From Capitulum mitella (lineage: Eukaryota > Arthropoda > Thecostraca > Pollicipedomorpha > Pollicipedidae), in assembly GCA_030062745.1 (NCBI GenBank), contig CP099839.1, positions 37,955,316 to 38,019,315 on the forward strand: a DNA stretch of 64,000 nt, in the 5' to 3' direction. The notes below the pieces were generated by a model. That model had not been told where the DNA came from. It saw nothing but the letters and a program-made list of their open reading frames with translations, and made no database searches. The position numbers and the translations under genes are program-made. Shown here piece by piece: positions 636-51,900 of the stretch. Numbering within the stretch: the first letter of the stretch is position 1; every line of letters begins with the position of its first letter.

Positions 636-3600
636 CTGGGATCAAACCGGCGTTGTCAGGTACAGCCATCTCCGACAGGTCATTGATCTCCTCCCGGCCG
701 CTATCCTGGGGTCAGAGAGGGGTTATCATGAGGCCTTCTCCATGTCTGAAGCACGGCACCGGTTACCTGCTGAGGACTCGCTGATACCTGCTGAGAGATA
801 CCAGCCCGCCATCACTGACTGCAAACCCACGGACACGGCGACAGATCTCCAGCTTAAACAAATGATCGCACAAGAAAAGCAGACACGGGCTCTGCCGGCC
901 TCAGGACGCCGTCGCCGTCCGCGGAGCAGACGAAGCAGATATGCGGCGGCGGTACGTACCAGACCGACGGCGCTGGTGGCTCCGACGGTGGACAGCGCCT
1001 CCTTGACCAGGGTCATCAGGAACTCGTTGCTGTGCCTGGCTTCCCGGCCTCCCTTCAGCAGCAGACCGTTGCCGGTGCTGATGGCCAGTGAAGCCACCTG
1101 CCGGATGGCGCGGCTGCAGTGTCACCGCCGTCCAACAATTCAGTACGATGGTCCGTCTGTGTGCCGTTCTTACAACACTTCCATTACGACCAAATGTGAT
1201 CTGAGGCTCTCAGAATCGATCATTGCTCGGCGCAAATAAAGGATAACTGAGGCACTAATCATCACAGCTTAACATGTTTCTTCGCACTGCGCTACGGCAA
1301 AATGAACTCTGAGCTTCTCAGAATGCAGTTCACAGTACTACTCAAGGCTAACAGGGCGACTAGTGACAATCGCTCAGGGCTTTTTCTCGAAAGCGGCTGA
1401 CAATACAACAATGCATTTGGACTGGCTGGCCTGCAAAATCCAAAACCTCCAGATATTCCCTCAGCCGCCCGGCGGCCGGTTCGTCCACGCCCACCGAGCG
1501 GCGGCGGCGGCGGCCGGGCGCTCACCTGCGGCAGACAGTCGGGCCGCGACTCAAAGATGACCATCAGCACGCCCAGCGGCACGGTCACCTGGCGCAGCTC
1601 CATGCCGGCCGCCAGCTGGGTGCGGCGCAGCACGCGGCCCAGCTGGCGGCGGCCGTCGGCCGCGATCTGACGCAGCCCGCTGGCCAGGTCGGCCAGCTTC
1701 TCGGGCGTCAGCCGCAGCCGCGACTGCAGCGCCGGCGGCAGCCGCTCCTTGGCCGCCTCGCGCAGGTCCTTGTCGTTGGCGGCCAGGATGTCCTGGCAGC
1801 GGGTCTCCAGCAGGCCGGCCAGCGTGGTGATGACGCCGGCGCGCTCCTGCCAGCTCAGCGACTGCAGCACCCGGCTGCCGCGCCGCGCTGCCGGCCACAC
1901 GGGCCCGTCAGACGGCCGCCCAGACGGCTGGACGTGACGTCACAACAGTCGGAGCGGCACACAATCGAACCGAAACCAGAAAAACCCTCTCTCTCTGATG
2001 AGGACGGCTAACCAGTTTTGACGTTTCTTGAGTTTCGACAAGGTCTGGTGCGGAAGATCAGCTGGAGAAGGGCAGAGCTCCCAGCACAAAAAAAAATCAA
2101 CGGCCTACTTTTGTGGCAACCTCATCAATCGTTTTCAGTGCACCTCTGTACAGGCGTAATTTTACCAACAAATGGGCACAAAACAGCGAGCGCGACTATC
2201 ACCGGACGGCGCATGCCATAAAGACACTGACGAAAAACTCACCGCCCTTGGCCAGAACCTCGACGGCCGCGCCTCCGGGGTTCTGCTTGGCGATGAAGGT
2301 GCCGACGCGGCGGCCGGCCACGATATCCTTGATGGCCTTGTCCTGCAGGCCGTTGCAGATGACGACCGAGACGCCGTGGTCCAGCGCCCAGGTGGCCGCC
2401 TTCGCCTTGGAGTCCATGCCGCCGGTGCCGACACGCGACTTGCCGCCGAACTGCACCTCGTCGCCGGCGACGCTGGGCACGTAGGTGTCGATGAGGCGGG
2501 CGCCGTCCTGGTCCGGCGGGCGCGTGTACAGGCCGTCCACGTCCGTCATCAGGATCAGCAGGTCGGCGTGGATGTGCGCCGCCAGCCGCGCCGCCAGGCT
2601 GTCGTTGTCCTTGACGCTGATCACCTGGAACGCAGGGCCCTGTCAGTCGACCTGAACTGTGTGTGGGGGGGAGCATTGAGAATGCTCCTTAGCAACGGGA
2701 GAGCTTGCGGGTATCATCGGGCGTGGAAAGCCAATAGTGTGTCTGTTATTTGGCATGAATGTTGTTCAAATGTGATGCAGAGCATCTGGTCCAGGCATTC
2801 GGCATGCACTGATTTCATGGCGATGAAAGTTATGGTAATATATTTTTCGGTTAATACTGTTGGCCGCGAGGAAGTTTGTTCATCTTAAGGGAGGCGCCAA
2901 TAAAATGCCGCTATGTTCACCATCAGTGACAATCTTGATAAAATAAAAGGAAGAATAGATACCTTGGAGGTGTTGTCTGGTGATGTGGCAAGTAAAAAGA
3001 TCATGTACAGCACAGAGGGAAAGCGAAGGTCGCGCATGCTGACACTGAAATTGCATGTTAAATGCATGTTGGATACAGACTATAGAAGAACGTCGGGCTC
3101 GTTAGGTCACATAATGAGGCTGTCGGCTGCTGCTGCTGCTATCGCTGTAAACAAGAAGGGCGCATACTTCCGTCACCCATGCTGATCTAGACACAAGACT
3201 GCAGTTCAAACCGCCACCACCGAGTAAACCTAGTCTATATTCAGGAGAATGTGAAACTGTCGCGAAAATACAACATCATTATCACGCCAGCACTGGGGAC
3301 CACAATTTTGCAGAGTAGTCACCAATGACCAAGCGATGAATTTGAACGCCAAAACGAAACGTACTTAATAGCACTATATTTAACATTGCTATGTTTTTCC
3401 TCATAGCGGAACTGAGCAAGGCTTGTACTACGCGTGGCTAAGAAATCCGGATACGATTTCCTCAGCCCGGCACTGTGATGGCGCTAATGAATCCGGCGTT
3501 AGTTCGGGTGCAGTAAGGTTTGCGTTATAACCACAAACAGGTGGGAACCATAACCATTCATTAGAGAGGAAGCCACAATAATACAGCCGGTGAGCGTTCG

Positions 3601-6600
3601 GATGTGTTTTGGGACTGCGTCCATTTAATACATTTGTTTACGTATGTTCATGAGACTATTTAATCTCGTGAGAACTTTGGGGCACATTAGGGTCCTTTTT
3701 TCGCACCACGCGCCATTTCCAAAATCCTAGCTCCATGCTTGCATTGCAGCACCATGGTTATCAGTCAGCTGCAAGGAAACAACAGTCACTAGAGCGGGCC
3801 TTCAGAGTTTTGCCGTAATATTACTCGACAGAGGGATAATCTAAACATCCGAACGTCAGGTCAGAACGCCTTCACCGCTCCCTTTCTACGTCTCCCGGCA
3901 TGCCTCTTTATTTTAAGGTTATATGGCAACAGATAATATGAGGCCCAAGGATCCATTGATGAAGGTTCCTATTCAACGGATTCGTGGAATATACTGCCCC
4001 TGTCATGCATGTCCTAACTATGTCTCGTAAACAGCCGATGGAGGCATAAACCAGCATTCTAACGCCAGGTCGAACGGCCACCACCACGCATCTTCTGCGC
4101 TCCCGAACATGCCTCCTGCTCTAAGGGTCCAAGACTGCGGTTAGGGGGGCTCGAACACAAGACTGGAACTGATGTCGCCGCCTGCACTCACTGGGCCCTT
4201 GTTTTGGTGCAGATGGTGACGCTGAAAAGAGAATACGGTAAACAGCGACTGCCTCGGCAGTCTGGACCTCAGGAGCTCGCCAAACGACATAGTCGCATGC
4301 GGATCAGCAAACAAACCGACTTCTAGTCTCGACGTCATGTACGACCAGGCGTGGAAACACAACGGAACTGGTGAATAAAACAACGCAAGAAAACGGGACT
4401 GCACAACCGCACAAAGTTTCTGATGGGAGACATTTTCCTCGCATTATCAAAGTAATCTGTAAAAGCGTTGGCGCTCCAGAGCCATCAGCAGAAAAGTTAT
4501 GAGGAGTAACCAAAGCAAAATACGAACCTGACGTGCGGCAAATGACCTGGTGCGATGGGCTCATAAAGTACCTGCTCTACGGTATTCCTTACGGGTTTCA
4601 CACACACTCAAATAATCTAAGTGGATCTCGCATGCAAAGCCTGAGTACGGGCAGTAAGTGCTGACCTGAGCCCCTCACTCTCGTGAGAACCCCAGGGGTC
4701 AGGGCCGGAGACGGCGGTCGGGGAAGGAAACAGAGGGGGACTCACGCCGGCCAGGTCCTCGTCAATCTGGGGCGGCGGGGCCACCGCGTCGTTGGTGTTG
4801 ACGATCGGCACGATATTGAGCGAGATCAGCTCCGACATGGTCTCAAACAGGTTCTGTTTGATCTCTTCCGAGTAAAAGTCGGACCGCGTGATCAGGATCT
4901 GCAACAGACGGGGACGACACATTATGCGAAATGCGCTGTCTTTTGCACACGCAGTCTTCGGCACAGGAGTGCGTTCTGTGTGTCCAAAACATCCAGCATA
5001 CAGCTCATAAATAAATTCCAGAAAGCGATTAAATCAAGTGTTCAAGAAATGTTTGCACTCTAAACCAGATATGCTGATGGGCTACGAAAGAATAACCAGA
5101 ATAATTCTTAGCCTAGATTTCTTCGCCTTCTGCAAACTAAAACATCGTGGTCATCAACGAATGTTCCACATTGTGATTTCATACGCTTGAAAATCCCCTA
5201 GTCGGAAACCCGTAGAACGCGCAAAAAATAGGACATGTTTGTCATCACTGTTTTCAGCACGGTGGGCTGTTTGCGTGTAGCCTTCCCATAGTGCGCAAGC
5301 CGCCTACCCGCGTACTATCTCAGACAACATTTCAGTCTGAAGGCCGCCCTGGCCAGGATGGCAGCGGAATCGTCAAGGCCGACGCGTTTCGGACCGCCTT
5401 CTGCAGCGGCCGAGTGGGCCGCACCGGCTCGGCCGCTCCACATCAGACGTCACGTCACAGCCGTCAGCACTCGGCCGCTCCAGATCACAGGTCACAGCCG
5501 TCACCACTCGACCACTCCAGATCACAGGTCACAGCCGTCACCACTCGGCCGCTCCAGATCACACGTCACAGCCGTCACCACTCGGCCGCTCCAGATCACA
5601 CGTCACAGCCGTCACCACTCGGCCGCTCCAGATCACACGTCACAGCCGTCACCACTCGGCCGCTCCAGATCACACGTCACAGCCGTCACCACTCGGCCGC
5701 TCCAGATCACACGTCACAGCCGTCACCACTACGAGAAGGCGGCGACAACGTCTGATCATCATTTCGGTTAGCGCAGCGGGGCTTTACTACCCTTGCCCCC
5801 TCCAACTTACGATATGCAAGCTGCCGGGCACATCATAACGACATACCTGTGTGGTACATATAAGCTGCTACACGAGCATTCCCAGTTCCACCATACTCCA
5901 CCGTCGACGTTTTCTTTTTTTAAGAACTGCAGGCAATCACTGAACTACAGGCAACTACAGGCTATCACTGAACTATATTAAGAACTGCAGGCAATCGCTG
6001 CGTTAATCTGAAGCCGATAACACACCGAAAGCCATTTTAATAAACTGGCGCCGAAAAAGCATATATCAACGAGACCTATGCCTCTGAGCAGCGGCAAGGA
6101 GTGCGAGCCCTGCGACGGGCGTATGCAGAATCACGGCCCGTGACCCAGTCCGCCCGGCGCCGTGTTACGTCAGATACCGGCTGCGGCGCGCGTTACAACA
6201 CGGACGCAGGTTACGACGCCGCCGGCCGGCGCGCTGGCCGTGGGCGTGGCCGCCCCGCGAACGCGGCCGTCTGAAGGGTTCGGGCCGAGGGCCGGCCGTG
6301 GCCGTGACGCGGGCCCCGGCCGCCGGCCTCACCTGGGCTATCCGGACGCCGTACTGGGCGAACATGGCGTCGTAGAGCGACATGAGGCCCGACTGGCCCA
6401 CGGCGGCCGCCGCTCTCGGCTCCAGCGTGTGGATGCCGCTCTTCTGAAAGCGTACACCGACTCGCTTTATGGCGAGCTTGCTTTTGTTCAAGCCATGCGA
6501 GTGGATCAACGGCACCAAAATATCATTAAAAGAAAGTTCTCGTGTATGGAACTTCTCTCACGCGGGACACTGGCGTGTGTTTTAATCTCACGGGCAATTC

Positions 6601-9600
6601 TACGTAGATGAGATATCATGGGCTGTCCAAATGTTCTCCAAAAGATATAAAATTGGGATTTCTTTAACGATATAAAGCAACCGAAAGTCTTGGCACGCTG
6701 ACATAGTTCAACAAAATCTCACCTTCATGGCCATCAGTTATAACCTCCTACCGACGAATTTAAGGAAATAGAAAAATAGTTTGTTAGTAACAGCAGTACC
6801 AGTCACTGCGATCAAGTCAAAACAGTGTGATGACGCAAGCGTGAAGCGTAAGCACCGTTCATCGTTTCTACCTTGGCTTTAATCTGGTTGTTGCCCGATA
6901 TGGTCTCCCTCATGCTGAGGAGACATAATGAGCTCTTCTGTCAGCTTCTGCTTGCCGAACGCTACCGAGCCTGACGTCACCATCAGGCATTCGCGGCCTT
7001 CATTCTGCAGTTCCGCCACCTGTCGTAAGGCCACATCAGCCGAACATCAGTGCTCTTACGAGGAACGGACACCGATCTCAAGCGTTACGACTATTGCAAT
7101 ACGCCATCGCGTAGTCAGTCGTTACACACGGATAGTTAATTACGTTTATGACTAAGAGGCAAACGAAAAACAGTGCTGCCTACCTTTGGATGTGGCCGTA
7201 GGTCAGGCAGACGTGTCCTGAACAATAGCGGAACAGAACGTTTTTCTTCCGAATCAGCAGTACGCCTACAAAAGAGCCGAGAACATTGCTATTCCGGTCG
7301 GGCAGGTTCGATTGGCCGCTGAGAACGTATGCGACAGATCTCCGACCAAATCTCTGTCGAATCACTGCGCACCGGCGTCCCACTCGACCCAATGGCGAGG
7401 GACGCCGCGCGTCGTGAGGCCCGCCCGCAGCCGGACCGCGCCGTCCCACCTGTTCCACGATGGAGGCCAGCCGCCCCAGCGCCAGACCACACTCGTCCTC
7501 GCGCGTGATGACGGCAGAGCCCATCTTGACGACGATCCGGCGCGAGTTCTTCAGCTGGCTGCGCTCTTTGAAGGGGACCAGGCTGGAGTCCGAGGTCAGG
7601 ATTGTCCGGCCGCCCGGCTGACCGCCATTCTGCAGGAAATCCTTCGTATCAGCACCAGCAGCGCATCATGGCCCATCAGCCGAGACTGCACATATCACTA
7701 ATGAGGTTTGCAATAGCAAGCCACACGTTGACCGCATTGATTTCAGTGGACTCTGCCACCTGTCCGATGGCCGGGTGTCGATTTTTTGGTTTCTTATGTG
7801 GCAACCACAGGTGTAATGTCCAATTCACCTTCCGCCATGAGGCCGAGCCCTGTCCATCCATGCATCCCTTCAGCAGTCATATGAGTTATAGAAGAATCGT
7901 GTATCTCCTGGCCGGTCATCTGTGTATAAACCTTTTTGTCTGCTACATTTCTAATGATGCTAACGATTGAAATTAATTGCCATAAAGCACCATTGTTGAA
8001 TATTTTCATCCCCAGCGTATTAAAAACGATCATTTTGAGCTCACAATTATCACAGAGATCAGGGGCTCACGGACCCGTTTGATGTCGCCCCTAAAATGTA
8101 AAAAACCGCCCAATCAAGTGACTGCACGAAAAGTCTGTTTCAATGTCACCAATCTTTTTCTACCCGGCAAAAACTGCGGAACTTCATTATGGTGCAGTCA
8201 AGAGGTAAAGCGGGCCTGGACCCATCTGAACTTATTTGGGAATCTCCTTGCAGAAACGTAACCGAGATCTCCGGCCCGCACTGCCCACGGCCTCCACTGA
8301 GCGGCGTGACCGAAGTCGGCTCAGGCCGATCGCAGCTCCGGACAGTAAGTTAAAGCCAACCGTCCGGCCGTCACGGCCGCCACGGCCGCGGCCGGACAGC
8401 TCACCTGTCACGGCTGACGGCTGAGCCGGGGTGAGGGAGACCGCACCCCCCCGCCCCCGACACCGGCCGGCCAAGCAGCGTCCCGGACCGCGGCGCGCCC
8501 CGGCAGGTGAAGCCAAGGGTGTGGCGCGCAACTGACCTTACCGAGTAACGGTCACATGAACGATGAGCTCAAGGAGGCAGGAGACTGTCCGACTGCAGGG
8601 CGTCTTAGTGCTGTACGCAAAATGTATTTAACCGGGAGAAACAAACGATGGGCGTCAAGGATCTCCCCGCCTCCTATGTCGATTACCTTAAGCTATCATA
8701 ACGACAAATTTTTAATCATGCATTCCCAACATTATAACAGTTACAATACGGTTCGCGTTATTTCTGCTATTAGTCCCAGTTCCATGCCTTCAGACCCAGT
8801 TCTGATCACGCTCTGTGCACGTGAATCAGCGCGCCACCTGAACTAATGGCGTCAAAACTGAACCTCATGGCGCGCGCCCTGCAGTCGCAGCTCTAACACA
8901 GAATAACGACTGGATTTCAGGGCGGCCTTGGGCTTCCCCTCACACTTTCACAGCTGTTGCTGGGGAAAAGCCGTCGGCACTCGCACACCGCAGCGCCGGT
9001 TCATGACGGCCTTGTTGCGAAACGCAGTTTGAACTGAGAGAAGGGATTTTATGAGCGATCTGATGCGTATGGGTAACCGAATGGGCTGGTAAACCGGCGT
9101 CTGTCCACGGAGCAAGTCTGACTAGATGAGTACCGCATTACGACGAGATAATGATCCCTGTATTCCTTCCTAACCTTACATTTCCCGATCATTCCGGCTG
9201 GAGAAGGGACCGGAAACTGAATGCCGTCTGCCGCGGCCGGTCGACTGTGGGACTGTCGGAACCTGCAGCCTTATTTGGCCGGCGTGGCCACGTGGCGCCG
9301 ACGCCGGTCCCCCGGCCCCGGCCCACAGGCGGTACATCGGCCGCTGGCAGCCGTTCCCACGCACAACCCTGCGGCCAAAAATACCCACCGACCCCGGCCG
9401 CGTGAGACGAGCGCAGCCAAGGTCTGCAGGTATGTGGGCCACGCGGTGCCGGGTCGGGCCGTTGGGGATTGAGGCAGGAGTACTGCGGCGGCCGCCGCCG
9501 GCTGAACCGGTCGATACAAGTGCGCGCGCCCGCCATGCACGTCACGGCCGCCGGTGCCGCGGCCGGCTAGCGGCTCACACACGCCCAATACCGGCCCGCG

Positions 9601-17513: not shown

Positions 17514-17868
17514 ATATTATGGGTAATCCTTTAGAAGCGCGCGCCATAAACCAAGCACACTGGATGACACATACACGGCGCATGTGGCAAAAGGAGACAT
17601 CAGCTGTTGCAAGAAACAACAACATTATGCACTGGAGCTCCAGGGTCGTGGATCACCTCCTATTCGCTAACCTAACCTAACCTAACCTAACCTAACCTAC
17701 TGTGTAAAACAAGAGCGAATAGTAGGTGATCTATGACCCCGGAGCTCCAGTGCATAATGTTGTTGTTTCTTGCAACAGCTGACGTCCCCTTTTGCCACGC
17801 GCGCCGTATATGTGCCATCCAGTGTGCTTGGTTTATGGCGTGCGCTTCTAAAGGATTGCCCATATTAT
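17514..17868. repeat. Long inverted repeat (~155-bp arms) around a telomere-type core
   Basis: The left arm 17514-17668 matches the reverse complement of 17714-17868 over its full length without an obvious indel, at roughly 90% identity. Differences are almost all transitions. The loop holds (CCTAA)n. Both arms stay open in the same peptide frame, but most differences change the amino acid, so it is probably non-coding. Confidence 0.9.
17667..17699. repeat. Interstitial telomere-type repeat (CCTAA)n
   Basis: Five full CCTAA units with partial units at both ends, equal to TTAGG on the minus strand, the usual arthropod telomere repeat. Lies exactly in the loop of the inverted repeat. Confidence 0.9.
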
Positions 17869-20534: not shown

Positions 20535-20677
20535 ATGGCAGTGAACAAGAAGCCAGGCCCAGAGTGCGACGCCAGCTGGCCGGATTCCGCTGACTGTGTG
20601 ACGCTCGACTTTGGGCCCTTTGAAACGGTGCACCGCTGGCGAAGAATGCCAGAACTGTATAAATTTGTCGGCGACAG
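20535..20677 (+). CDS. LZTR1: LZTR1 exon 1
   Basis: Residues 1-47 plus two bases. Contains the family hallmark [17 protein letters not shown] and FVGD. Donor AG|GTTAGT. Start chosen as the only Met upstream of the conserved block. Confidence 0.95.
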
Positions 20678-23600
20678 GTTAGTCTTGTCTTGTTACTGGA
20701 CTGAACTGGTGTTCTTTTAGTTTAGACGAAATGTGTTGAAGTGGGTGTCATTGGGATCAGAGTTCATGCTAAGCTGAGCGTGCTGGACCCGAACTCCGCC
20801 ACCCAGGTGTTCCCAAATATGGAGTAATTTTGTCCCAGGCGCCGAGTCAGATGGCGCCGTGCAACTCCGCGACACGGCCGCCCTGTGCCTAGCTGACCCT
20901 TCAAGTCTCGGGCCAAATACAGGTGCCCGTTTTGGGACTCGAACCCAGTGCCTACCACGCACCGGATCTGTTGTCCAGTTCCTTATCCATGAGGCCACTG
21001 AGACGGCGCCTGGTGTCAAGGAACTTGCAAAAATAAAGGAAATTTTGGTCTTTTTTCCGTGCTGCCTTGCCATACTTGCAGTTGTAAAGTAAAATGCAAT
21101 TAAGTAGGCGTCACGAGGGCATTTCATGGTTTGTGTAGAGGAAGCCTGTATGCATACTGGCACCGCATGCAGATCCATAACGTTAAAAGCCTTTGGTTTT
21201 CCTGTATATCTCATTTGGCTATTTGTTAATCAGGGCTTATGTGTGATGTCATAACCAGGCACAGGTCAATGAATGCTTTTGTTCATTGACCCGGGCAGGC
21301 CCATATTTCATCTCATTAGCAAATGTCTGCAAAATTAAGCGGTTGAAGAATTACGTTTTCTTAAGCTTTTAAATAAAACTTAGTATCAGAGACTTTGTAC
21401 TCAGATTTTTAAAGTGAATCATTTTGGTTTCACTACTGCTGACCCAGAATATGCTACGATCCCAGACGGAGCAAACACACGGTGGTGGCCTACAAGGACG
21501 GCATCTACGTGTTTGGGGGCGACAACGGGCGCACCATGCTGAACGACCTGCTGCGCTTCGACGTGAAGGAGAAATCGTGGGCCAAGTGCGCGTCCAACGG
21601 GACTCCGCCAGCGTGCCGGTACCACCACTCGGCCGTGGTGCGTAATTGGGTCTCGCCCGGCCGAGGTCCCAGCCGCCGACTGGGAGCAGGGATAACCGAT
21701 GGTAGGCGGCAGTCTTCCTTGTGGTTCTCTTCACGTACCTCGTACAAATGGTCTGCGTTGCGTTTTTCGGAGCAGCTTGCGAAAGTGCGCTCATTTTTTG
21801 AACCCTTTTGAAAGCGAACTATAAATGAGGTCCCGTTGTTGCCGTGTTTTTTTCAGCCCATCTTTGCTGTTCATTAAGTGCTGTCTACATTAGACTGAAC
21901 TTTTGTGACCGTTTTCAGCTTTTCGGCTCCTCCATGATCATTTTTGGAGGGTACACTGGAGACATCCACTCCAATTCCAATTTGAGAAATCGGAACGACT
22001 TGTACGAGTATAAATTCTCCACGGAGCAATGGGTTGAATGGAAGTTTACTGGAAGGTAAGACTCGTGTGATTTCACACTTGTGGCCCTGTCATCTGCTGT
22101 CACGTCATATAACTTTGATGTTTATTCTTGGTCAAGGCGAGCGTTTTTTAGGGGTTCTTTCCTTTTGGTAAATTACAAGCACGAATGTGCGGGATTTTTG
22201 TTCTACGATTGATTGGTGCTTTGCTCATCCCACGCTTTCATTCGTCGCTTGTTGTTTCCCTGAGGCCGTCTGCGCCTGCTGACCAGTGCTGCTGACGGTG
22301 TCCACACCCCACAGGGCGCCGGTGGCTCGGCCATCCCACGGGGCCTGCTGACCGGCTCTGCTGACGGTGTCCACACCTTCCACAGGGCGCCGGTGGCTCG
22401 GCCATCCCTCGGTGCCTGTTGACCGGCGCTGCTGACGGTGTCCACACCCCACAAGGCGCTGGTGGCTCGGCCATCCCACGGGGCCTGCTGACCGGTGCTG
22501 CTGACGGTGTCCACACCCCACAGGGCACCGGTGGCGCGGTCGGCCCACGGTGCGGCCGTGTACGACAACAAGCTGTGGATTTTCGCCGGGTACGACGGCA
22601 ACGCCCGACTCGACGACATGTGGACCATGTCGCTCACGGTAAGGAACAGGTGGGCTTGCGATGCCATCGTCCACTGGTAGAGGAAGACAAGAAAAAATAT
22701 GATTAGTACAGAGGAAGGTGCACATAAGAAGAGCGAAATGACCCAAGTTAAGGGCTTGTGGTTAGTGTCGGTCATAACGAAAAAAGAAATGTGTCAGAGA
22801 TTGGGTCTGTCCTAGTTTAGACAGTCAGGAAGAAGGTACAAACACGTCATGCTTCTAATCTTGACGTCCTTAATTATTGTTTCATATGCATTCAACCAGT
22901 TCTGGGCCTGGTCAGGTGAAATGATGTGGTTGGAACGGCGATAACTGTGGGGACAATTTTAAAAGCTAATATAATAATAAGATACAAAATGGGGACAGTA
23001 GAAAAGGTTTTGAGCTTGCCTTCTCTTTGGCATCACCCTGTGACGGTGCCCCCTCCCCCCACCCCTCCCCGTTTGGCCGCGCCCGTCCAGTGACGCCGCC
23101 TGCAGGGCGACACGCACGTCTGGGAGGAGATCCAGCAGAAGGGTGACTGTCCGCCCACCTGCTGCAACTTCCCCATGGCCGTCGCCAGGGACTCCATGTT
23201 CGTCTTCAGCGGCCACTCGGGCGCCAGGATCACAAACTCGCTCTTCCAGTTCAACCTCATTGATCAGGTGTAAGTAGGATGGTGCGGGATACGAGAGATG
23301 CGCGTCTGACGAAATACTGCTGCGTTTTTGCATCTGGTGCTGGGCTTTTGGCTCTGACAAGCAAGCATTGGACAAGTTTACGACAAATATTACATGTATC
23401 TTTGAAGTACTGGAGGTTTGTTTTTGGGTGAAAGGTGTAATTTCACATTCCTCACTTGTTCGAAATCTGGTCTCCAAAGACAAAGAAATGTACCTCGATT
23501 GACATTGTTTCAGGGGAGACGATTTAAGGCTTTTTGGTCTTACTTCCAATCCTTGGGAGGGGCTGAAGAAGATTTCGCTCCGCCCGGGCCGTCACGTAGT

Positions 23601-26600
23601 CGATACAACGGGCATCCCCCTGCCTGATGCCGGTCATATGCCTGTTGCAGCTGGAGCCGGATCTCGACAGACCACATCCTGCGTGGCGCTCCGCCGGCGC
23701 CCACGCGCCGCTACGGCCACACCATGGTGGCCTACGACCGGCACCTGTACGTGGTGGGCGGCGCTGCCGACTCCACCCTGCCCAACGACCTGCACTGGTC
23801 AGTAGGGACGGCCGGCCGCCGCCCGGCCCGTCCTCAGGGACGTGTGCGTGCGTCCGTGCGTATGTGTATGGTGTGTGTGTTTGTGCTCGTAGGTCACGCC
23901 AGTATAAGTCATTTAGCGCCCATGAAACGATGGCTGTGAGCATCGTTAGTCGGTGCTGGTATAGTCTGTGGTTCTAGGCATTTCGTTTAAGTCTACACTT
24001 GACGGCAGAGAATGTACTGAACACGGATAAAAGGCCTAGACGTAGCTGTAATAGTCACACTAATAGTAACAGCCCGGCCTAATGCGTCGCCGGTGTGAAG
24101 GCTAAATGAGAAGCCGGTTCGTAACGGCGCGGAGATGCCCAGCGGCACTGGCTGTCATTGGTGTGTGGCGAGGACAAGGATGCCGTGCCGGTCGGACGCC
24201 GCCCCCCGGCCGCTTACCGTCCGTCCCTCCGTCCGTCGCAGTTTCGACCTGGACACGCAGACGTGGTCGACGATCGTGCCGTCGGCCGACTCGCAGCTGC
24301 CGTCCGGCCGGCTCTTCCACGCGTCGGCCGTCGTCCACGACGCCATGTACATCTTCGGCGGCACGGTGGACAACAACGTGCGCAGCGGCGAGATGTACCG
24401 GTTCCAGGTGGGCCGCCGACTGCGCCGTCCGTGGCCGGGCGCTACGCCGCCAGGGAGATGGGTCCGCGGTCGCCGTGCAGTATCGGGCCGACTCGCCAGA
24501 TCTCGGCCGTCGTAAATTGCAGCTCGTCCTGTGTTTTGTCTGTGTACGCAGCCACTGCGGTGAAGCAGCTGAATGGCTGCCAGTGCTTTTGTTGCCAGGC
24601 AGAGATTCCGTTGATTATCTTGGCACATGTGGATCATGCATTTCATCTGACTGTCGGCTCAAGCTCCTGTTACTTCATACACACTATTTTACAAACCTGA
24701 ACGGGTGTTGGACTGAGTAGGCCACTCTGAAGCCGTTCTGTCGTGGCCCGACCGTAACGCGACCTGCCTTCGCCGCCAGTTCTCGTCATACCCCAAGTGC
24801 ACGCTGCACGACGACTTCGGCAAGCTGCTGGAGTCGCGTCAGCTCTGCGACGTCGAGTTCGTGGTGGGGCCGCAGGAGTCGCGTGTGCCGGCGCACGTGG
24901 CGATCGTGGCGGCGCGCTCGCACCACCTGCGCGCCAAGGTGCGCCAGGCGGCAGAGGCGCGCGCCAGGCACCTGGAGCAGGTACGTCCGGCGACCGGCCG
25001 TCTATAGGTACCTGGAGCAGGTACGTCCGGCGACTGACCGTCTATAGGCACCTGGAGCAGGTACGTCCGGCGACTGACCGTCTGCAGACACCTGGAGCAG
25101 GTACGTCCGGCGACCAGCCGTCTGGAGACACTGAACAGGTACGTCCGGCGACCGGCCGTCTGCAGACACCTGGAGCAGGTACGTCCGGCGACCGGCCGTC
25201 TGCAGACACCTGGAGCAGGTACGTCCGGCGACTGACCGTCTGCAGACACCTGGAGCAGGTACGTCCGGCGACCTGTTGCCCGCAGACACCTGGAGCAGGT
25301 ACGTCCGGCGACTGACCGTCTGTAGGCACCTGGAGCAGGTACGTCCGGCGACTGACCGTCTGTAGGCATCTGGAGCACGTACGTCCGGCGACCGGCCGTC
25401 TATAGGTACCTGGAGCAGGTACGTCCGGCGACTGACCGTCTATAGGCACCTGGAGCAGGTACGTCCGGCGACCGGCCGTCTGCAGACACCTGGAGCAGGT
25501 ACGTCCGACGACTGACCGTCTGCAGACACCAGGAGTAGGTACGTCCGGCGACTGGCCGTCTGTAGGCACTTGGAACAGGTACATCCGACGACCGGCCGTC
25601 TGCAGACACCTGGAGCAGGTACGTCCGACGACCGGCCGTCTGCAGACACGAGGAGTAGGTACGTCCGGCGACTGACCGTCTGTAGGCACCTGGAGCAGGT
25701 ACATCCGACGACCGGCCGTCTGCAGACACCAGAAGCAGGTACGCCCGACGACCGGCCGTCTGCAGACACCTGGAGCAGGTACGTCCGGCGACTGGCCGTC
25801 TGTAGGCACTTGGAACAGGTACATCCGACGACCGGCCGTCTGCAGACACCTGGAGCAGGTACGTCCGGCGACTGACCGTCTGTAGGCACCTGGAGCAGGT
25901 ACGTCCGGCGACTGACCGTCTGTAGGCATCTGGAGCAGGTACGTCCGGCGACCGGCCGTCTATAGGTACCTGGAGCAGGTACGTCCGGCGACTGACCGTC
26001 TATAGGCACCTGGAGCAGGTACGTCCGGCGACCGGCCGTCTGCAGACACCTGGAGCAGGTACGTCCGACGACTGACCGTCTGCAGACACCAGGAGTAGGT
26101 ACGTCCGGCGACTGGCCGTCTGTAGGCACTTGGAACAGGTACATCCGACGACCGGCCGTCTGCAGACACCTGGAGCAGGTACGTCCGACGACCGGCCGTC
26201 TGCAGACACGAGGAGTAGGTACGTCCGGCGACTGACCGTCTGTAGGCACCTGGAGCAGGTACATCCGACGACCGGCCGTCTGCAGACACCAGAAGCAGGT
26301 ACGTCCGACGACCGGCCGTCTGCAGACACCTGGAGCAGGTACGTCCGGCGACCGGCCGTCTGCAGACACCTGGAGCAGGTACGTCCGGCTGCCCGCAGGT
26401 CGCAGAGCTGTGGTGGCGGCGGGTGAGGCCTCTCCGCGCCGCTTTGTATCAAAGGAGGAGGCTCAGGAAGATGATTGGTGGGAAATTTCAAGATCGGACA
26501 CTTTTTACCTTGAAGATGTCGTTTGCTATGGGTTTAGCCGAGAGCGTCCGCCTTGCGCGCTTCGGCCATGGATTTCTGAAATCCATTTGGGAGATGCAGT

Positions 26601-29600
26601 GTAATTCCTGTGATTTGATGCATTTTTCGGTAACATGCGGTATGCAGACAACGCCTCTTGCGGTGGCGTCGTTCAGGGCGAATTTCAGGGCACAGTGCCG
26701 AGGACAGCCTCCGGCGCCCGGCGCCGGTACGGGTCGCCTCTGACACCCCGCCGCCGCCGCGGCTGCCTCCAGGTGTTCGGCCCGGCGACCATCCCGTACC
26801 GGGACACCCCGCTGCTGGAGGTGCGGCTGCCGGACGCGGCGCCCGAGCCCTTCCAGCTGGTGCTCGACTACATCTACACGGACCAGATCGACCCGACCAA
26901 GCGCACGCACGGCGACCGCATGAGCGCGCGCATCGTGCCAACCATGATGGACGTGTACCGCCTGGCTCTGCAGGTACGTGGCCTGGGGCCGCCAGATCGC
27001 TGGCTGGGCTCCAGCACGGCTCTGCGGTTTCGCTGGAATTACACCAGATGAATCTGATTCGACGAAAGGCTTTGCCTTTTGACATGGCTGTGCAGTGATG
27101 CCTGTCAGTATCCGTTTCGTGGGGTCGCTGACGGCTAACCTGTGCACAGTTCGACATGTGCCGCCTGGAGCAACTTTGCGTGCAGTACCTGGAGGCGGCC
27201 ATCAACCAGCGGAACGTGCTGGTGGCTCTCGAGAATGCCAGCACCCTCCAGCTCAACTACATCAAGGAGTTCTGCCTGAGGTCAGTCGGTCCGGGCGGTG
27301 GCAGACTGCTGGTGGGGTAGCGGCAGACACCTGGTGGACGTAGCAGCCCGTCACGCCTGGTGGCGGCAGGCAGCTGGTGGGGGTATCGGGGGCATTCATT
27401 CCCTGTGAGATCGACCAGGGGTAACACACCATAGTCTCAAAGTGTAATGAAATATTGTCTGGGGGGTTATCTGTTTCCCAGCCACCGTAGCTTGACTGGG
27501 ATATCAAATTTTCACTTCTCAGCTCGGTCTGGCGCGCAGTTTTTGCACTAGAGCAATCTCAAGTTTTTAAATTTGTCGATTTTTGGCCAGACCTCTGCTG
27601 AGATAATGTGTATTGCTTCAGTAATTGATGACCACATTTTCATAAACTAAACGTTGCTGTGATGAAGACGAAATGCTGCGATGCTCTTCGGTTTGCATTG
27701 TCTAAAAATTCTTGTGGTTTCTATTTGACCTTGGAAAGTATTTTCAAGGTCAGATTTTGAGGGTGTGCGCAGTGATTCTGATTAAAACTGCGAACAGGCA
27801 AAATACTGTTTGAAGGGCTTTGATTCATTTTAAATCGTGAACATTTCCCCATTTTTGTGTTTAACACTGCGTACACCTGTAATTTACGGCAATGGCCGAA
27901 AGTATCCTCGTTGGGCATTTCCTCGCTCGTTACCGGCGGGAAATGGCATTAGAATCACGAGTATAAATGGTTTATGGTGTGCGCGTAAGTTAATCACGTG
28001 ATGCTGTTATGAACAAACAATGAATAGAAATACAGGTGCAACAAACACACGGTGTCGTTCGCGACAGAATCGACCGTAAAGTTGAAAAAAGATCCAAGTT
28101 TTTAATCGATGCCGTCGCAGCCTGGGCAATGGGCAGGCGGTGCGGCGAATCCAGTCGTGTTGAGGGCCAAAATGGACGAAAAAGTACGGAAATGAGACTA
28201 TTTGATATGCTTGTCACCATATCATCATTGAAATATTCTTCATGGACTAATATGATGACTGTGGTCAGCACCGGTGGCCATTTGTTTCGAAAATACTGCG
28301 GGCAACGCAGATTAAGCTGTGGGCAACTTCTGACTCAGTATGGCATTAAATAATTTCCACGGCATGTGGAAATGCCTGAAAACCTGCCAAAAAAACTGTT
28401 TCTGACCCATGTCAGAAACAGTTTTGACTGCCATAACATTAACAAATTCATAGATATCAAATTGTATTTTGTTACATGACCTTATATTGCCAGTGGCCTT
28501 GAAACGTTTATCGGGTTAAGTCAGTAGCCTGAGGTCAATGGAAGGTTTAGTTACTTTCTGCAGAATTTGCTTTCTGTTTTTTTTCCTTCTTTAAAAATTG
28601 TGTTTTGGAAATAAAAAGTAACAGCACAGGATCATGAGCATACGTGAAAAAAGCTGGTTGATCCCAGTCTATCACTAGAGGTCAGGTAGAAGACAAAGTT
28701 ATTTTCCGTTTTTCAAGTCGCTTCTGTTTTTAATGCGGGAATTTTGGGCCATTTTTCCAGGCTTTATGATATGAATTGTCTCACCAACTAGCCCTGTGTT
28801 CCACTTATTGCACACTAGGGAATCAAGGTCACTTGAAGTCATTGAAGATTCGCAGACCTCTTTGAGCTTAAAAAGTAGTCTGGTTAGAAAAAAAGAACGT
28901 GAAATGTTTTATTTAACATTTTGGCATATTTTGACATAAATTTACAAATTACGGGGTGATAGTGTGCGCTCCAAGCGCCACCCATTACAGAGGATATGTC
29001 ACATAAAAAGCCGTCGTGTCTTCTTGCAAATTATGTTTGTAACTATGTTTTATGGAACAAAGAAGGCGGTATGCTGTCTGTCTCCTCCTCTGCTAGTACG
29101 GCTGAGCTGACAGGGTGGGACAGCAGGCAGACTTCGCCTGCTACTGCGTGGCGCGGACGGAAGAGTGTGTTTTAAAACCACAAACTTTTATTTGCGACTG
29201 ACAGTGAGATTTTGCTGTTTAATTCATTTGTTTTGCATGATGTAATCTCTGCTTTTACGCCGTTTTTGTTTTTGTTTTCCTATGGCTGCGATTCGCGAGT
29301 TGAGAGAGGGAAGGGTGTTCAGACACCCTCCTGATACGTCAAAGGTGAATCTGACGACTGATACGGGGCGGGTTAAAAGAAGCACAGAATCTTCCCAACC
29401 GATCCAGTGGACAGTCTCGCACCTCAAAGCAGAAGTCAGCAAACGAAACTGCGGGGTATGATCAGCTGAACGCAGTCAGCTGACTGCATTTTCGGTCGAG
29501 TCCGTCTAGGTGTCACCATCGAAATCTGGGTGGCGTCATTCCATTCGTCCGTCGAGTCAGCGTTGGTCGAGTCCGTGACGGATTACCGCCTGCGTAAACT

Positions 29601-35600: not shown

Positions 35601-38600
35601 GGCAGACAGTTTCAACCCATATATGGACAGAAGTTTTCAGACGTGGAATAGCTTGAGGAGTCTTGATATGGAAAAGAAACATAAGTTAACTTGTAGATTA
35701 TGCAAGAAATGTCAGAAATGCATCATGAAAAGACAAAAATATATGTTATACTTAGTTAACTTCAGCAATTGTGACGGACGACCCAAATATAGGCCGCTGT
35801 GGCATATGGCACCCAAAACGAAACTAACGTCAAAGAAGAGACTGTGCGGTGGAAAAGTGGGGGCTACATAATATCAACGACGTCCATAGCATGCCAAGCA
35901 AGCTCCTGACATTTAATCGATTTACCTCCAAATTCGATGTTTGGGCCGCGTTTTTAGATAATCTAAGTCTCATTCAAAGTTTTCCAAGAAGTTGGGCAAT
36001 GCAACGGAACAAAGCCAGGTATTTCGAGCCTCTCATTCACCCTTATGTGCAATATGCAAGCGAACCAGTGGGGCGACAATGTGCTTTAACATGCTGGTGA
36101 ATGAAAAGTGTAAACAAAGCACCAACTCGTGGAAACGGTATTTGGGAGCAGAATTATGACAGTGAATGGACCGAAACTTGCACATCAGTTAATAAATGCA
36201 CTACATCGGTTCGACTTCAGATGGTACATTGTAAAATATTCCCGAAAATCGTTGCGACAAACAGCCTGCTGCAGCGTATGGGCATAACAGAACGTAACAC
36301 GTGTGATATGCAGTGGAGGTAGGGACGCAATCATTCCACAGGTTCTGGAAATGTGACCATGCTAGACATTTTTGGAACATTCGCGAATGGTTAAGTAGAC
36401 TAGCTGAAGTCAACAGGCTTTCGTTTCACAGGAGGGGGAGGTGTTTAGGCTCGGCGATGTTAGTCAGTTAGTTTATCATGTTACATACATACATGAAAAG
36501 TTTGTTAATCATGTCACTTTTATTGCTAACTATTGGTCACTATTATTGGTATTACTGGTACGAATATTATCAACAGCAATAATCATTTAAATACTGAGCA
36601 CTTCATGGCACGCGTCCAGACTGAAAGAAATACGGAGGAAATCACTGCAAAACGGAACAACGCTTTCAAGGACTTCAACATCAAATGCGGGACACTAGGG
36701 CAAGCTATCCATGGACCACGGCAGTAGTGGAATGTAAGGGTCAAATAAAACGTTACGCCATCTTGCGAAACAACCTTGTCTTTTGCGGTGAGCGAAGTGT
36801 GGGAGTGGAAGGTTGAAAGGTTTTTCTAAAAGTGTGAATTAAGGTGTCAACTAAAAGCACTGAAACCAGTGGATCCATTCGGGAGACCTACCGAATGCCG
36901 GTTGCCGGCGCAGGCTTTTCCACCATGGGATGAGACCCGGCAAAGCGGAATTGCGAGAATTGACCGGAACATGAAACGTAAGTGTCACCCTGTTTGACTG
37001 ATCGACCTCGTGAGTCCAACATCGTCAACGTTAGCAGCGCCCAGAATAGTCGCGTTCATACCAGTCAAAGTCAACCTACACGACTGTCACCGGTTCTCGG
37101 ACTATCCACCGTACATCGCCGGACGACATGATCGGAGACGACCAAAGGGCCATGCAATGCTCACCTTAAGCACGTGGTCGCGGTACACACAGGGCAGCTC
37201 ATTGTTATTCTTGCAAAAGACGCAGTGGTTGGGCACCTTGGACCTGCGCCGCGCCGCCGACCTCGAAGCTCGCGGCGGCGGCAGGCTCCTCTTCCGGTCC
37301 AGGTCAGGCGCCGTCTGGGTGCTGGACGGGTACGGGTTCACCGCAGTCCAATGACAGAGCCAGTCCAGGTCCAGGGTGGTCCGCCGGTACAACTGGCCCT
37401 GGTCCGGGGTAGTCCGCCCGAAAAACCGGCCCTGGTCCGGGGTGGTCCGTCCGTACAACTGGCTCAGGTCCGAGGTGGTCCGCCCATGAAACTGGCCCTG
37501 GTCCGGGGTGGTCCGTCCGTAGAATTGGCCCTGGTCCGGGGTGGTCCGTCCGTAGAACTGGCCCTGGTCCGGGGTGGTCCGTCCGTAAAACTGGTCCTGG
37601 TCCAGGATGGTCCGTCCGTAGAACTGGCCCTGGTCCGGGGTGGTCCGTCCGCAGAACTGGCCCTGGTCCGGGGTGGTCCGTCCGTAGAACTGGCCCTGGT
37701 CCGGGTCGGTCCGGCCGAGGTAGCGGTCCAGCTGGACGGTCGTCTGCGGACCGCAGCGGAGGCCGCCCTCTCCGGCCACCGGTCGGAGGAGCGGGCGTAG
37801 GCCGGCCGCGGTCGCCGCGATCTGCCCCGCGGGCCGCGCCATCGCCAGCTCCAGCTCACTGTCCCGGCCGTTACTGCGGAACTCGGCCAGCACCCGGCCG
37901 AAATCGTCCGCCGCTGCAGCCGAGCACAGAGCGGCGGTCAGAGGGGCGTGGTGGGGTCCCCGTCCCCGCCCCGGTCCCCGGCCCCGTGTCCCGCCTCCCA
38001 GACAACAGGAGCTTACCCCGCTCACAAAATTACATTAGGAGGAACAGAAGCCAAGCCAAGCTTGACGGGCTACTCATGATACGACTTTTAGAAGCAATGT
38101 CACAACTAAGAAAAAAACAATGTTATTGCAAAACATGATTATTTTCCCACTCGCGATCATTTAATTCTGCATCGAGAGCCGCTAACAACACAGTAATCGC
38201 ACAAAAACCGTAGCGTCGCCCGAAATACATCCGACTGGCCCGACCGCCCGCGGCGTCGGCTCAAGGCTGGGCCGGCTGCCGGCGGGCGTTGGCGGGCCGC
38301 ACGGCTCAGCGCCGCTTCTGTTCGCCGAGCTATTTATCAGCAATACGAGACGAAGGATCGTGTCGCGCGGTACGCATGCTACCGTAAATTAAAACAGCAC
38401 AACGAGAGGGAGAGGGGTGAACTTGAGTAACAAAGAGGCTAGGAATACGATACCAAGGTTCGTGCAGACGATCTCAGCGACACATCTAGTCGTAACTTGA
38501 CGATCGGAAGTTGAAACTTCCCCCCGGGATAGCTCTTACTGATTCATGACATACCAGATGCTTCTAACTGTGATCTTTTGTTTGACATCAATTTCAAAGT

Positions 38601-45973: not shown

Positions 45974-48900
45974 CGGTATACATGGGGATAAATGCAAATT
46001 TTTGTTTAATAGATAGTAACAAAAAAACTTATAAATTTCCGTTGGTCAAAATAAACGGGCTAAGTCCATTGAGAAACCCACATTTGAGAGGGGGTTAGGA
46101 TGTCGGACCCTCGGCTCGTCCCTCCCAACCATTTACAGAAATCGACGCCTCTGTCAAATGGCCATTTCCCCCCCCCCCCCGCCAAAGACATGGGTATTTC
46201 CACTCAACCAGAGTTTGGAGTTGCTGGAACTCCGAATTCAACCTGTGGCCAGGGTCTCTCCCCCTCCCCCCGGTCAATGACTTACTTTTCATACCCAGCC
46301 GCTGAAGTACGTACTTGGAACCTACGGCCAGCGTTTTCCACCCTACTCACCCCCCCCCCTCCCCCCGTCCCCCGGTCAACGACTCCGATGGCCTACCATT
46401 CAGACACAGGAAATTCTGGTTTGCTCCTTCCCCCGAACGGAGCCGCTGGATCCGCTCCTGCGTGCGACGTGTACGTAAGAATATGAAAAGAAGAATTTTC
46501 TCATCAGCACTGGTGTGACGGTGCGTATAACAAAGTATGACGCAACTCTCCCGGCCGCGATGACGTAGCAACAGTGTGTCGCAACTGTGCGACGTCACGC
46601 GAAGGTTAGCACGCCACTCGACGCCCAGCCTGAACCTGAGTCCGCCTCCCGTCTTTCCAAAACCGCCTTCATGTGATGAATTTCGCTTGGAATTCATCAC
46701 CTGCGGGGGGGGGAGGGGTGAGGGTGAGCCACTTCATAAATTGACTTCACGCGGGGGAAGGGCCAGCCACTCCCCATAATCTCCTGATCTACTGGACCAG
46801 TGTCGACGAAACACGGCTGCAGCGACAACTTGTGATTTGAACCAGCCTTTCATATATGCCACACAAGCAAAGCGCGTCAGAGGCGTCTTCAACAAACAAA
46901 CAGGGGATGAACGCACTATCTATAAGGGGCCTCAATCGCGGCTCCAGGAAGCCAAAACAGGGGTGACTGCAATGAGCTGAGAGTGGCAGTGTTGTGTTGA
47001 TAAAACCAAACCATCCTTCCCGTTTTTTTCTCGGCTTAAGTTTTCCTGGATACGCTCCTGCTAACTTGTATATTTCACGCGTGCTCTGTCCATAAATGTC
47101 ATTGTTGGACTGAAATCAGTGATGTAAACCACTGATCAAATTTTACGAAGATAACCATTGTGTTTCAAAGCCTAAGTCCTGCAAAGTTCTGTACCTGACT
47201 CCGCCTTTGATCTTTATGCATGCTTCCTGTATAAAATGACTGCCATATCGAGACGGTATTTTGCATCGGTATTTTATACGCTCCCTTCATGAAATATATC
47301 CTCGTCAGTATTGCGGTATGTATAAGCCTTTACTTATCGAGCCGTACGTTTTTCAGAGCGCATAACCTGCATCATATGGCTTCCATTGCCCCTTATGATA
47401 TCCACTGCATCCATTTTTGGATGTTTTGTAGGTGATGTGGATAGTTATGATCCTTTCATGCGATTCCATCCTGGTGTTGCTAAATATTGGTCTACCGCAC
47501 CGATATGTAAATGAGCGTAGTCACAAAACGTCCTGACGTGTCTCTATGAATGTCGCCCGGAGCCGTCTTGGTCCACGCTGGACGCGGAAATTTTGGTGCG
47601 ACATATAAAAAGTGTGCGCAAGAAGTCACCGAATTTCAGCCCAGCAGCGTGAATTGTTTGGCTTTTGTGCCGGAATAAATGCATGGCAATGGAGTTCACC
47701 CGACCCGCATACCCATAGACCCCTGCCAAGGCATGACATTTGTTTCGCACATGCATCTTCCCTTTGCGGAAATGAAGCGCCATGTAAACGCGGTTCCGTT
47801 ATCCCACAGCCCAGAACGACCAGGACTGGTCGAGAGAGCCCTAACGAGCGGCCGACAGCCGGCCGGGACCTGGGGCCGGAACGGGGCGCCGAGCGACTGA
47901 CCGCCGCCCGGCGCCGCCAGGTTCATCGTCAAGGAGATCAACTACACCGAGATCGTGATGAGCAGCGAGTTCGAGATGCTGGAGCAGAGCCTGATGGTGG
48001 AGATCGTGCGCCGCCGCCAGGTGCCGGCCGCCCGGCCGCTGGCCGATCCCCAGTTCGACACCTCCGGCAAATGTAGGTCGCTGCCGAACGACGCGCCCTC
48101 TGCGGCCGAGTGCGCCGCCCCGCGCGTCCGGCTGCGCCATTCTGCGCCGCGTCACGCCATGTCCGGTGTTCCACTGTTTGTGTTCGGAAACCGGCGCGGG
48201 GCGGGCTCGACACAGCGCGGCGGGGATTGCCCCAGGGCGGTCTGACTGGGCGCCCGGCTCCTCCGGCGCCGGGGGGGGGGAGTGGGGGGTCGGCGTCCGG
48301 TGTCCGCTGCCCGACCGCGCTCAAGCTGATCCGGATGATGAGTCATCGTGTCGTTATGCTGCCATACGGTCTGCTCGGGTCACGGTGGCGGGTTCACTTG
48401 CAGAACCGGAGACGTGTTTGACATCAGGCTGTGTTAGTCCAGTACTGAAGTGCTCGCTTCAGGCGATACATGGATGGGAAGAAGCACCCTTATCTATGAT
48501 TTAGTTGTTTTTCCCTGTAAAACATCGCATTGATTTCTAACATTGATTATGGCTGTTCGTAATTCATTGGCCAAACACGTTACGGTAAAATAGCCTCGGT
48601 GTCCACGTGCGGAAGTTGCTAGCCTAGATAACCGGAATCGCCGGATGAATGGGCAGGCACCACGCTACTGCAAGACATGGAGACGTTCCTGCGGACGTCG
48701 GGAGCCGAGTTCTGCGACCTGACGCTGGTGCTGGACGGCGAGCTGATCCCGGCGCACAAGCCGATCTTGGCGGCGCGCTGCTCCTACTTCGAGGCCATGT
48801 TCCGCTCCTTCATGCCGGAGGACGGCGTGGTTCAGGTGAGCGGGCGCGCCACTCCTTTGTCCCGTACGGACCCGTCGGAGCTGGACGGGAGGTGGACTGT

Positions 48901-51900
48901 TCTCCACGCTGTCCCGCTTGGACGGGGAGCTTAGTGGTATGGAATGGGAGAATGTCTCGCTGGCTGGCTGTTCAGAAACGCAGAATAAGCTGAATGTTGT
49001 ATGTATCTTGTGGGTCGGTGCTGGTGAGATGTGATTCATTTTCCGTCCTAACGTGTTGACAAGACATTTGCTGTATTTCCACATGTGCTCTTGGTTGGAC
49101 ATTGGTCTTGTTTGAGGGCACCCGCAGGGCAGCTCTGAAGTAATAATCTTTGTGTCTCCATTGACGCCGACATATATTCAGAATAACTGAAAATGCCGGA
49201 TGCCTTCCGTGCATTCTTTCATTCATACTGGAATCGTATGAACGGCATATGCCTTTCGGTGTCATCGTTGTTTTCGCCTGTACTGAGTAGCGGGGTCATT
49301 ATCCGATAACGGCAGTCCCGTCAGTTTCCCGCAACCCCCTGGTCTCTTCACCAAGGTCGGAGGATCAAAGCTGCCGCCAGTTGTGACCGCCCCCCAGCTC
49401 CCCTCCCCTCCCCGGCGGGTCTCCCCCCCGCTGTCGGCCGAGCTGGTCAAACAAGGTGCCGACAAGGCGCTAATTACCCCTTCCGGCCGTCTGGAGTAAC
49501 AGCGGGCGACGGTCGCCGGCGCGGCCGAGCCGTCTGGGCGGCCGGCAGCAGGGCCGTCATGCAGGATAACAGTCGGCAGGCTGATGGGCTGGTAACCAGC
49601 GTATCCCTCCCACCGGTCCTGAAACGCCGAATCTCTGCCTGGGCCTTCTTGGGCGCCCCGCTCAGGGCTTGGTCCGGCCCTGCTGGTGGTGAGCCGCACT
49701 GGCCGTTCAAAATCACTATGGTTGCTTCCTCGAAACAGTGCCAAGCAAGATGTCCCATCGACATTTACACGAATGCGTGAACAGTACACTGCTGCCTGTG
49801 TCACGGCTGAGAAGCCGACCCCGAGCTCATCAATTTCAGCTCATCACACGACCATGATGTCGGGCGATTTGCGTAGGCGTGCCTTCAAGCACAAAAAACA
49901 GTGCTGTAGAGAACTGAACAGGCAATAGAACGGTTCGACTGCTTTGTCATACCTAGGATAACATTTAGCGGCACGAGGCCATTATCTTGAAAGTCTAAAT
50001 GTTTTACGATTTCTGAAAGCTTTGTCTCGAATGAGATCTTATGGAGTCATGGAATATCTTTATTTTCCGGCTACGACATTATTGTTCACCTCTGCATCTG
50101 GAGGCGTCTTAACCACTGTAATACAACAGAGCTGTGTTATTTTTGGACCTGACCCGATATAGATTGAACGGACCGACCGGCTCTCCGGGCTTCGTCGGCC
50201 GCTCGGCTTCCGCCCGGCGCTGGCAGGTGGCGTCGGTTGAGCCCTACCTTATCGAGCCTGTTCGCCAGTCTATTTATTAGCGATGCGAGACAAAAGTTCG
50301 TGTCTCGCGATATGCGTGTGACCGCCATTTGAAACAGTGCAAGGAGAGAAGATGTAAAATTTGATTACGAAAGAGAGGCCGGAAATAAGATTACGTTAAT
50401 AGCGTCTGGCCACCACTGTCGCACTGGCGGGAACTTCCAGACCGTAAGTTGCAAAACTTTCCTGGGCTAATCTAGGATAGCTTTCGTCGTGTTTATCGCA
50501 TCGGTGAAGACACGCCAAACTTTGATCTTCCATTTGACATCAGTTTCATCGTGGTCACTCAACTGATATACTCTTACTTCAGCTTAATACAAGTGTCGCG
50601 CATTTTTTCAACTATCGGTTCTGACGTTGATGAGGCCGTTAACGTTGCCTGTCAGCACAGGAGATCAAGGGTTAAGGTGTTTATCCTGAGATGAGAAAAA
50701 TGCGCCCTGTTCATTGCCGTTGGAATCATGTAGATCGGACTCTTCGTGCCTGAAATACGAGGGGTCCGTTTTGTCCCTCCCCCCTTCTTTTGCGGATGGC
50801 GAAAAACCTAAAGCGGTGCAGGGTTATGTGAGCTGGGCCCGTTATAGGCGAAATACATCTTAACCCGGCGCCGCCTGGCGTTTGGGGATGTCAGGAAAAG
50901 TTATCTCCGTTATCTCAGGATCTAACCGTCTGATCAGAACCGGTCTACCACCAATCGATAACCCTAAGCCTTGCGATTCAGAAAATTTCATGTCAGGCCA
51001 AGTCACATGAAACGCATGTAATGTGGCCTGGTCAGACATGTCAACGGGCAGCAAACGATGTCACTGGTTACGTGAAACGCATAACACGACGCCGGAAAAC
51101 TGACACCGGTTCGTACATCATATCATCGGCAATACTGGTTTGAAAGCCTTCAGCTACGTGTCAAACGAAAGATAACGATCTCCTGCATTAGAAGCATGTC
51201 ATAATTTTAAGAAACGTGGAGTCAAGGTCAACCTGGATCCAGAGACTGGCAGCCGTTTTGGTCCACGTCACAAAAAGGATGGAAGTGAAACCTATTCGTG
51301 ATTAGTTTCTCATTACTTGTTTTTCGTCCAGTCAAGGTCAGTCTAGGTGAGGCCAGATAAGGTTCCGTTACGCTTTCTGCCAAAGAGGCAATAATTTTTA
51401 ACAGGAATTCTTAACTGCGCCAAGGACAGAACTGAAATGACATCTCGTGATTATCAAATGTGCTTTCTCCGCTCTTTATCGGGTCAAAGTCGAGGCAGGT
51501 GAGGACATGGTTGAATTTTTCAGACGGATCTCAAAGTTCGGCATCCGCTATCCGTCGCGCAGCTTACGTAACCCGTGTCACGCGTGGTTTTACATTTGAT
51601 GGGTATCGTGTGCAAAATGTCGTGTGACGGAGTCCATCTTTCGTGTTTGGAATGTGGACACAACGCCCGCTTTAGTCGTTTTTATAAACCGTTTTTTCTT
51701 AATTAAAGATAATATGTATGATAAGAGTCTCCTTGTCATGTTATCATTTCTGTGCAGTTCACGTCTAGGGAATTACCATGTTTCTTTTCTACAAAAATGA
51801 CTGAAAATTGGATCAATTTTCAATGAGATGATAATTTTGGGGCTTTTACCACCATGACAGGATGCGCTTTAGAGAAGGGTACCGTTAGCTCCTTTTGTAC

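Follow-up and report, generated by a model that had tools for sequence, protein, structure and literature searches.

The LZTR1 gene of Capitulum mitella (Arthropoda, Thecostraca) contains a 40-bp minisatellite that is built across the 3' end of exon 8 and presents the splice donor of this exon, together with its copies, at 36 sites. The gene lies in the window analyzed here, a stretch of 64,000 nucleotides (nt) of contig CP099839.1 (assembly GCA_030062745.1, positions 37,955,316 to 38,019,315, forward strand), to which all coordinates below refer. By their anatomy, this array and a second one at the exon 4 acceptor of the same gene belong to an already described type of repeat, the mirages of amphioxus (PMC3087553), of which they are a striking case. 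We consider it likely that the exon 8 array is a mirage whose copied donors are tolerated as decoys with no dedicated function, and that splicing proceeds mainly from the first donor.

The repeated exon 8 donor and the boundary that it copies

Tandem Repeats Finder places the array at 24965..26389 on the plus strand (period 40, 35.7 copies, 87% matches), with a score of 2017 that is the highest among the 20 repeats listed. Anchoring on the motif GTAC[GA][TC]CCG yielded 36 donor-like sites, spaced by 40 bp in 34 of the 35 intervals and by 38 bp in the other one. GTACGT is present in 30 of the 36 sites; over nine bases, 25 read exactly CAG|GTACGT, five CAG|GTACAT, four TAG|GTACGT, and one each CAC|GTACGT and CAG|GTACGC. 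The first unit consists of the last 16 nt of exon 8 and the first 24 nt of intron 8. An initial annotation, made from the letters alone, had described a donor array of about 36 copies derived from this junction, and that description was borne out, with coordinates correct to a few bases.

The gene was identified as LZTR1 by a Pfam scan of the joined exons, which matched Beta-prop_ATRN-LZTR1 (3.7e-56), Kelch families, and BTB (4.2e-24); the protein scanned was slightly misjoined where exons 2 and 3 begin, and exons 8 and 9 were unaffected. The last exons (47921-55223) were placed by reading frame alone. Exon 8 (24780..24980, plus strand, 201 nt) encodes the first half of the first BTB domain, and its final codons are H L E Q. 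With short flanks (24720-25004) it matches positions 1-51 of the BTB profile, and the joined exons match positions 1-107 of 110 with residues 364-500; this match contains the junction of exons 8 and 9, which follows residue 418. Exon 9 (26773..26973, plus strand) begins in phase 0 at the acceptor CTCCAG|GTGTTC, and its own donor likewise reads CAG|GTACGT. Joining the first donor of the array (24981..24986, plus strand, CAG|GTACGT) to the acceptor at 26773 keeps the frame, with phase 0 at the shared junction, and exons 1-10 joined through this donor with corrected exon starts give 525 codons and no stop. Because the frame and the BTB domain both continue across the junction, exon 8 most likely ends at 24980, and the array would be intronic from 24981 onward except for the 16 exon bases in its first unit; this unit fits the exon. 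The frame and the BTB profile thus agree with the earlier placement of the real donor at 24981, first in the array and directly behind HLEQ. Among solved structures, exons 8-11 matched a single BTB chain (1.8e-4), which was uninformative, and no relatives of exon 8 were found in viral contigs.

Translation onward from the first donor reads VRPATGRL and then TAG (25005..25007, plus strand, by reading frame). When the later donors are joined to 26773, all 35 include this in-frame stop, as the initial annotation had stated for any later donor.

There are 21 types among the 36 units, arranged as ABCDEFGHGCIBJKLMNOPQRMGCSBJKLMNOPTFU. According to the unit string and the site positions, a 12-unit higher-order block is present twice on the plus strand, as units 9-20 (25283..25762) and again as units 23-34 (25843..26322). 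Since the two copies differ at only two of 480 bp (I/S and Q/T), a block of about 14 units, equal to the lag of 560 bp, was probably duplicated recently. The sole differences between the block copies are 25379 and 25739 versus 25939 and 26299. Both are at donor positions (-1 G to C and +6 T to C) and both are in the exon-proximal block, a pattern that consists of two events only.

Column variability was scored over 17 distinct unit types, taken from 32 of the 36 units (units 1, 5, 8, and 36 were excluded). Variable columns make up 10 of 16 in the exon-derived part versus 7 of 24 in the intron-derived part; within the copied CTG codon, units differ at the middle base. Stronger drift of the exon-derived columns would follow if the first copy alone is coding. 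The end of unit 8, TGCCCGCAG, is similar to the sequence just past the last unit and may be left over from the start of the original intron. The minus strand of the array has long open frames between 25440 and 26462, up to 340 aa, with no sign of a gene; such frames are probably the result of the 40-bp period and the GC-rich unit.

The most likely history of the array is as follows. A 40-bp segment across the exon 8 donor, with 16 nt of exon and 24 nt of intron, would have been tandemly duplicated as a seed, and the array may then have grown by slippage or unequal exchange, latest by duplication of the block of about 14 units (560 bp). Selection on the protein would have kept the first copy, and the other 35 copies would be drifting intron. 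The first donor would most likely be the one mainly used, with the remainder removed as a single intron of about 1.8 kb, and the likeliest reasons for its being favored may be that it is made first and that there are signals inside exon 8.

Which of the 36 donors is used

In the 17 unit types, four of the nine donor columns are variable, and 8 of the 40 circular nine-column windows, counting that of the donor, do not exceed the donor window in minor alleles. Selection on the copied donors was rejected, since their columns do not stand out in conservation. Recursive splicing at CAG|GTACGT, where the mean upstream pyrimidine fraction is 0.48, was likewise set aside.

The initial annotation had also noted many units with TCTGCAG before ACACCTGGAGCAG|GTACGT, each of which could act as a 13-nt microexon. 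Exactly 12 of the 36 units have TCTGCAG, 13 nt, and then CAG|GTACGT, and an AG lies 13 nt upstream in 35 of the 36 sites, or in 34 of the 35 intronic ones, one being exonic. The branch-point motif yTnAy was found at -15 to -45 for none of the 35 array AGs (one exonic) versus 9 of 12 real LZTR1 acceptors; it was found at 735 of 2,000 random positions in 20600-48000. This is a motif test only, which 3 of the 12 real acceptors also fail. By this test, the 13-nt units are not preceded on their 5' side by a functional acceptor, that is, a branch point plus an AG, and the proposal of microexons was not upheld.

The copies drift as noncoding sequence, the donor columns are unremarkable, and the array AGs have no branch-point motif; all of this supports the reading of the array as a tolerated mirage, as do the second array of this kind in LZTR1 and the published mirages, which are said not to disturb splicing.

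Several observations weigh against this reading. The real donor and 24 of the copies share a predicted U1 pairing of -7.9, compared to -7.1 for six sites, -6.3 for four, and -1.5 for one. Pairing is therefore identical in 25 of the 36 sites, and among the 10 donors of the gene that were scored, that of exon 8 ranks 8th, so that the donor itself gives the first site no mark; this also makes the term decoys, used in the initial annotation, a fair one. With a predicted opening of 6e-4, the first donor does not stand out from the array (1.4e-5 to 2.4e-2). Exon length counts against far donors only, because the exons made with donors 2-5 would be of quite usual size (241-359 nt), and the last donor would make one of 1,599 nt. 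In duplicated-donor constructs, the winner is often the site closer to the acceptor. In pyrimidine content, the array AGs (mean 0.56) overlap with the real acceptors (0.44 to 0.81), which weighs against a simple dismissal of microexons. Moreover, copied signals could serve as cryptic sites according to PMC3087553, and downstream repeat units are reportedly in use in the human gene IFI6 (PMC4526556).

Two candidate causes of an advantage for the first donor were given up. Hiding of the later donors by RNA structure was rejected because the predicted opening of the first donor is inside the array range, and exon length was dropped because donors 2-5 give ordinary exons.

At this locus, either the first donor wins, as the published mirages suggest, or LZTR1 would lose some of its transcripts. 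The latter would be the case if splicing were noisy and dependent on copy number, with later donors used, the stop at 25005 included, the mRNA degraded, and LZTR1 falling with array length, with no evolved control. We regard this as unlikely. It draws strength from the 25 donors, the real one included, that share the same nine bases, from the stop given by 35 of 35 later donors, from the ordinary exons of 241-359 nt that donors 2-5 would make, and from the IFI6 repeat units downstream that are reported as splice donors (PMC4526556), whereas regular splicing is described as unaffected in the case of the amphioxus mirages (PMC3087553, PMC3902484). More doubtful again is the combined proposal that mirages stand at both the donor and the acceptor of one gene outside the cephalochordates and that a longer array would place U1 on later donors, leading to the stop at 25005 and to less LZTR1.

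The initial annotation had raised a poison-exon style control of LZTR1 dose. That such a control, by poison exons or microexons, has evolved and that selection maintains the array for it we find highly improbable. The 12 of 36 units with TCTGCAG, 13 nt, and CAG|GTACGT, together with the stop from every later donor, are what such a control would build on. However, none of the 35 array AGs has a branch-point motif in range, the donor columns are not distinctly conserved, the copied codons are free to change, and published mirages are said to leave splicing undisturbed; in addition, a block repeat with two changes in 480 bp suggests a recent and unstable length, and both changes hit donor positions, -1 and +6. 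Least credible of all is an assembly artifact in which the array or its 12-unit block repeat was inflated or collapsed. The block copies differ at only 2 of 480 bases, and a draft genome apparently assembled one mirage aberrantly (PMC3087553), but the 21 unit types form an ordered string and the flanks join two real exons; the copy number may be wrong, but a structure of this type is hard to invent.

In itself, the array is probably a harmless by-product. It is also a natural form of a classic splicing experiment, in which 36 donors, 25 of them with the same nine bases, lie behind a single exon, and therefore the rule by which a donor is selected may be read from ordinary cDNA.

A second boundary array and published relatives

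LZTR1 has a second minisatellite across an exon edge, with a 69-bp unit in 4.0 copies (22274..22550, plus strand), which duplicates the acceptor of exon 4 together with about 28 nt of that exon. The exon itself extends over 22524..22638 on the plus strand, with the real acceptor most probably at 22524. Among the acceptor copies, those at 22315 and 22386 have the AG, and the one at 22455 does not (CACAA); either intact copy would lead to an early stop if used. Unlike the exon 8 donor array, these copies have a branch-point-like CTGAC upstream.

Near copies within 2.5 kb were found for 2 of the 24 LZTR1 junctions tested, namely, the exon 8 donor and the exon 4 acceptor; this set leaves out the 3' ends of exons 11 and 14 and the 5' ends of exons 12 and 15, which are placed tentatively. 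As a control, 27 of 400 random centers had copies, 26 of these within listed tandem arrays, and in the P5CS gene of the same window, none of nine candidate sites on the edges of five fragments had near copies. Random placement of five minisatellites in the window put at least two across LZTR1 exon edges in about 0.3% of runs, and random placement of two arrays within 20536-27280 only did so in 1.3%; in these tests an edge counted within 40 nt and two exon starts were slightly off. The five minisatellites were chosen by hand (unit over 20 bp, about four or more copies), leaving out two-copy arrays, short-unit arrays, and microsatellites. As GC-rich exons may favor minisatellites, this comparison with chance is suggestive only.

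Minisatellite-like tandem duplications of exon-intron boundaries were described in the globin genes and Adh3 of amphioxus and named mirages; they occur at 5' or 3' boundaries, have units of 10-160 bp, many with AG/GT signals, and vary in length (PMC3087553). TnC and PGBD5 were added later (PMC3902484). The units measure 10-72 bp in Adh3, 150-160 bp in the globins BflGb6 and BflGb9, and 60 and 108 bp in PGBD5 (PMC3087553, PMC3902484). The Adh3 data and reverse transcription-PCR indicated that regular splicing is not disturbed, and cryptic use was called possible (PMC3087553). The amphioxus mirages have the same anatomy as both LZTR1 arrays. In the exon 8 array, the edge unit spans the boundary that the frame and the BTB profile point to, and many units carry the copied splice signal. 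The name was coined in cephalochordates, and a cephalochordate host is not strictly defining. LZTR1 differs from the amphioxus cases as described in having a donor mirage and an acceptor mirage in one gene, and in size, with 36 donor copies compared to the 6 and 3 repeat units of two BflGb6 haplotypes. In the literature covered, which was partial, we met no earlier report of boundary arrays in LZTR1 or in crustaceans.

Related structures are known from other organisms. For human IFI6 (6-16), PMC4526556 cites Turri et al. 1995 on a minisatellite that gives multiple splice donors. Two downstream units of that gene are reported to be used and to yield isoforms, whereas any later donor of LZTR1 leads to a stop. 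The IFI6 repeat unit is reportedly 12 bp. In human paralogs, variable internal tandem repeats with units of about 30 bp on average touch exon-intron boundaries (PMC2812944); there, novel introns were deduced from repeats inside exons, whereas the LZTR1 copies are intronic and no new intron was seen. In a potato RdRp gene, an intron was gained by tandem duplication across an intron-exon boundary, with the splice signals copied (PMC4974935). A new intron was formed in that case, whereas in LZTR1 there is no sign of one and the array AGs have no branch-point motif in range. Boundary-spanning minisatellites may be raw material for new introns, and, with an acceptor array four exons upstream of the donor array, they may be more frequent than the small number of published cases would suggest.

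Other sequences in the window

Exons of P5CS (delta-1-pyrroline-5-carboxylate synthase) lie on the minus strand at about 1526-7548, with 7f5t as the best match (3.4e-96). The P5CS region contains a 37-bp minisatellite of 7.6 copies (5451-5730, 97% matches), away from the exon edges found. Another minisatellite, with a 33-bp unit in 10.6 copies (37368-37717), lies in the 20-kb intron after LZTR1 exon 10, and several of its frames are open; for a minus-strand frame of 309 aa there, all Pfam matches were below the curated cut-off. In LZTR1 intron 1, at about 20778-21020, a sequence resembling a tRNA-derived short interspersed element was recognized by eye on the minus strand; ARAGORN found no tRNA in the window, this sequence included, and no Rfam family reached its gathering threshold in the window. 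The usual telomere repeat of arthropods is TTAGG. Three TTAGGG units in a row were not found in the window, and an interstitial (CCTAA)6.6 tract of 33 bp is present at 17667-17699, which is a weak indication of an arthropod rather than a cephalochordate host.
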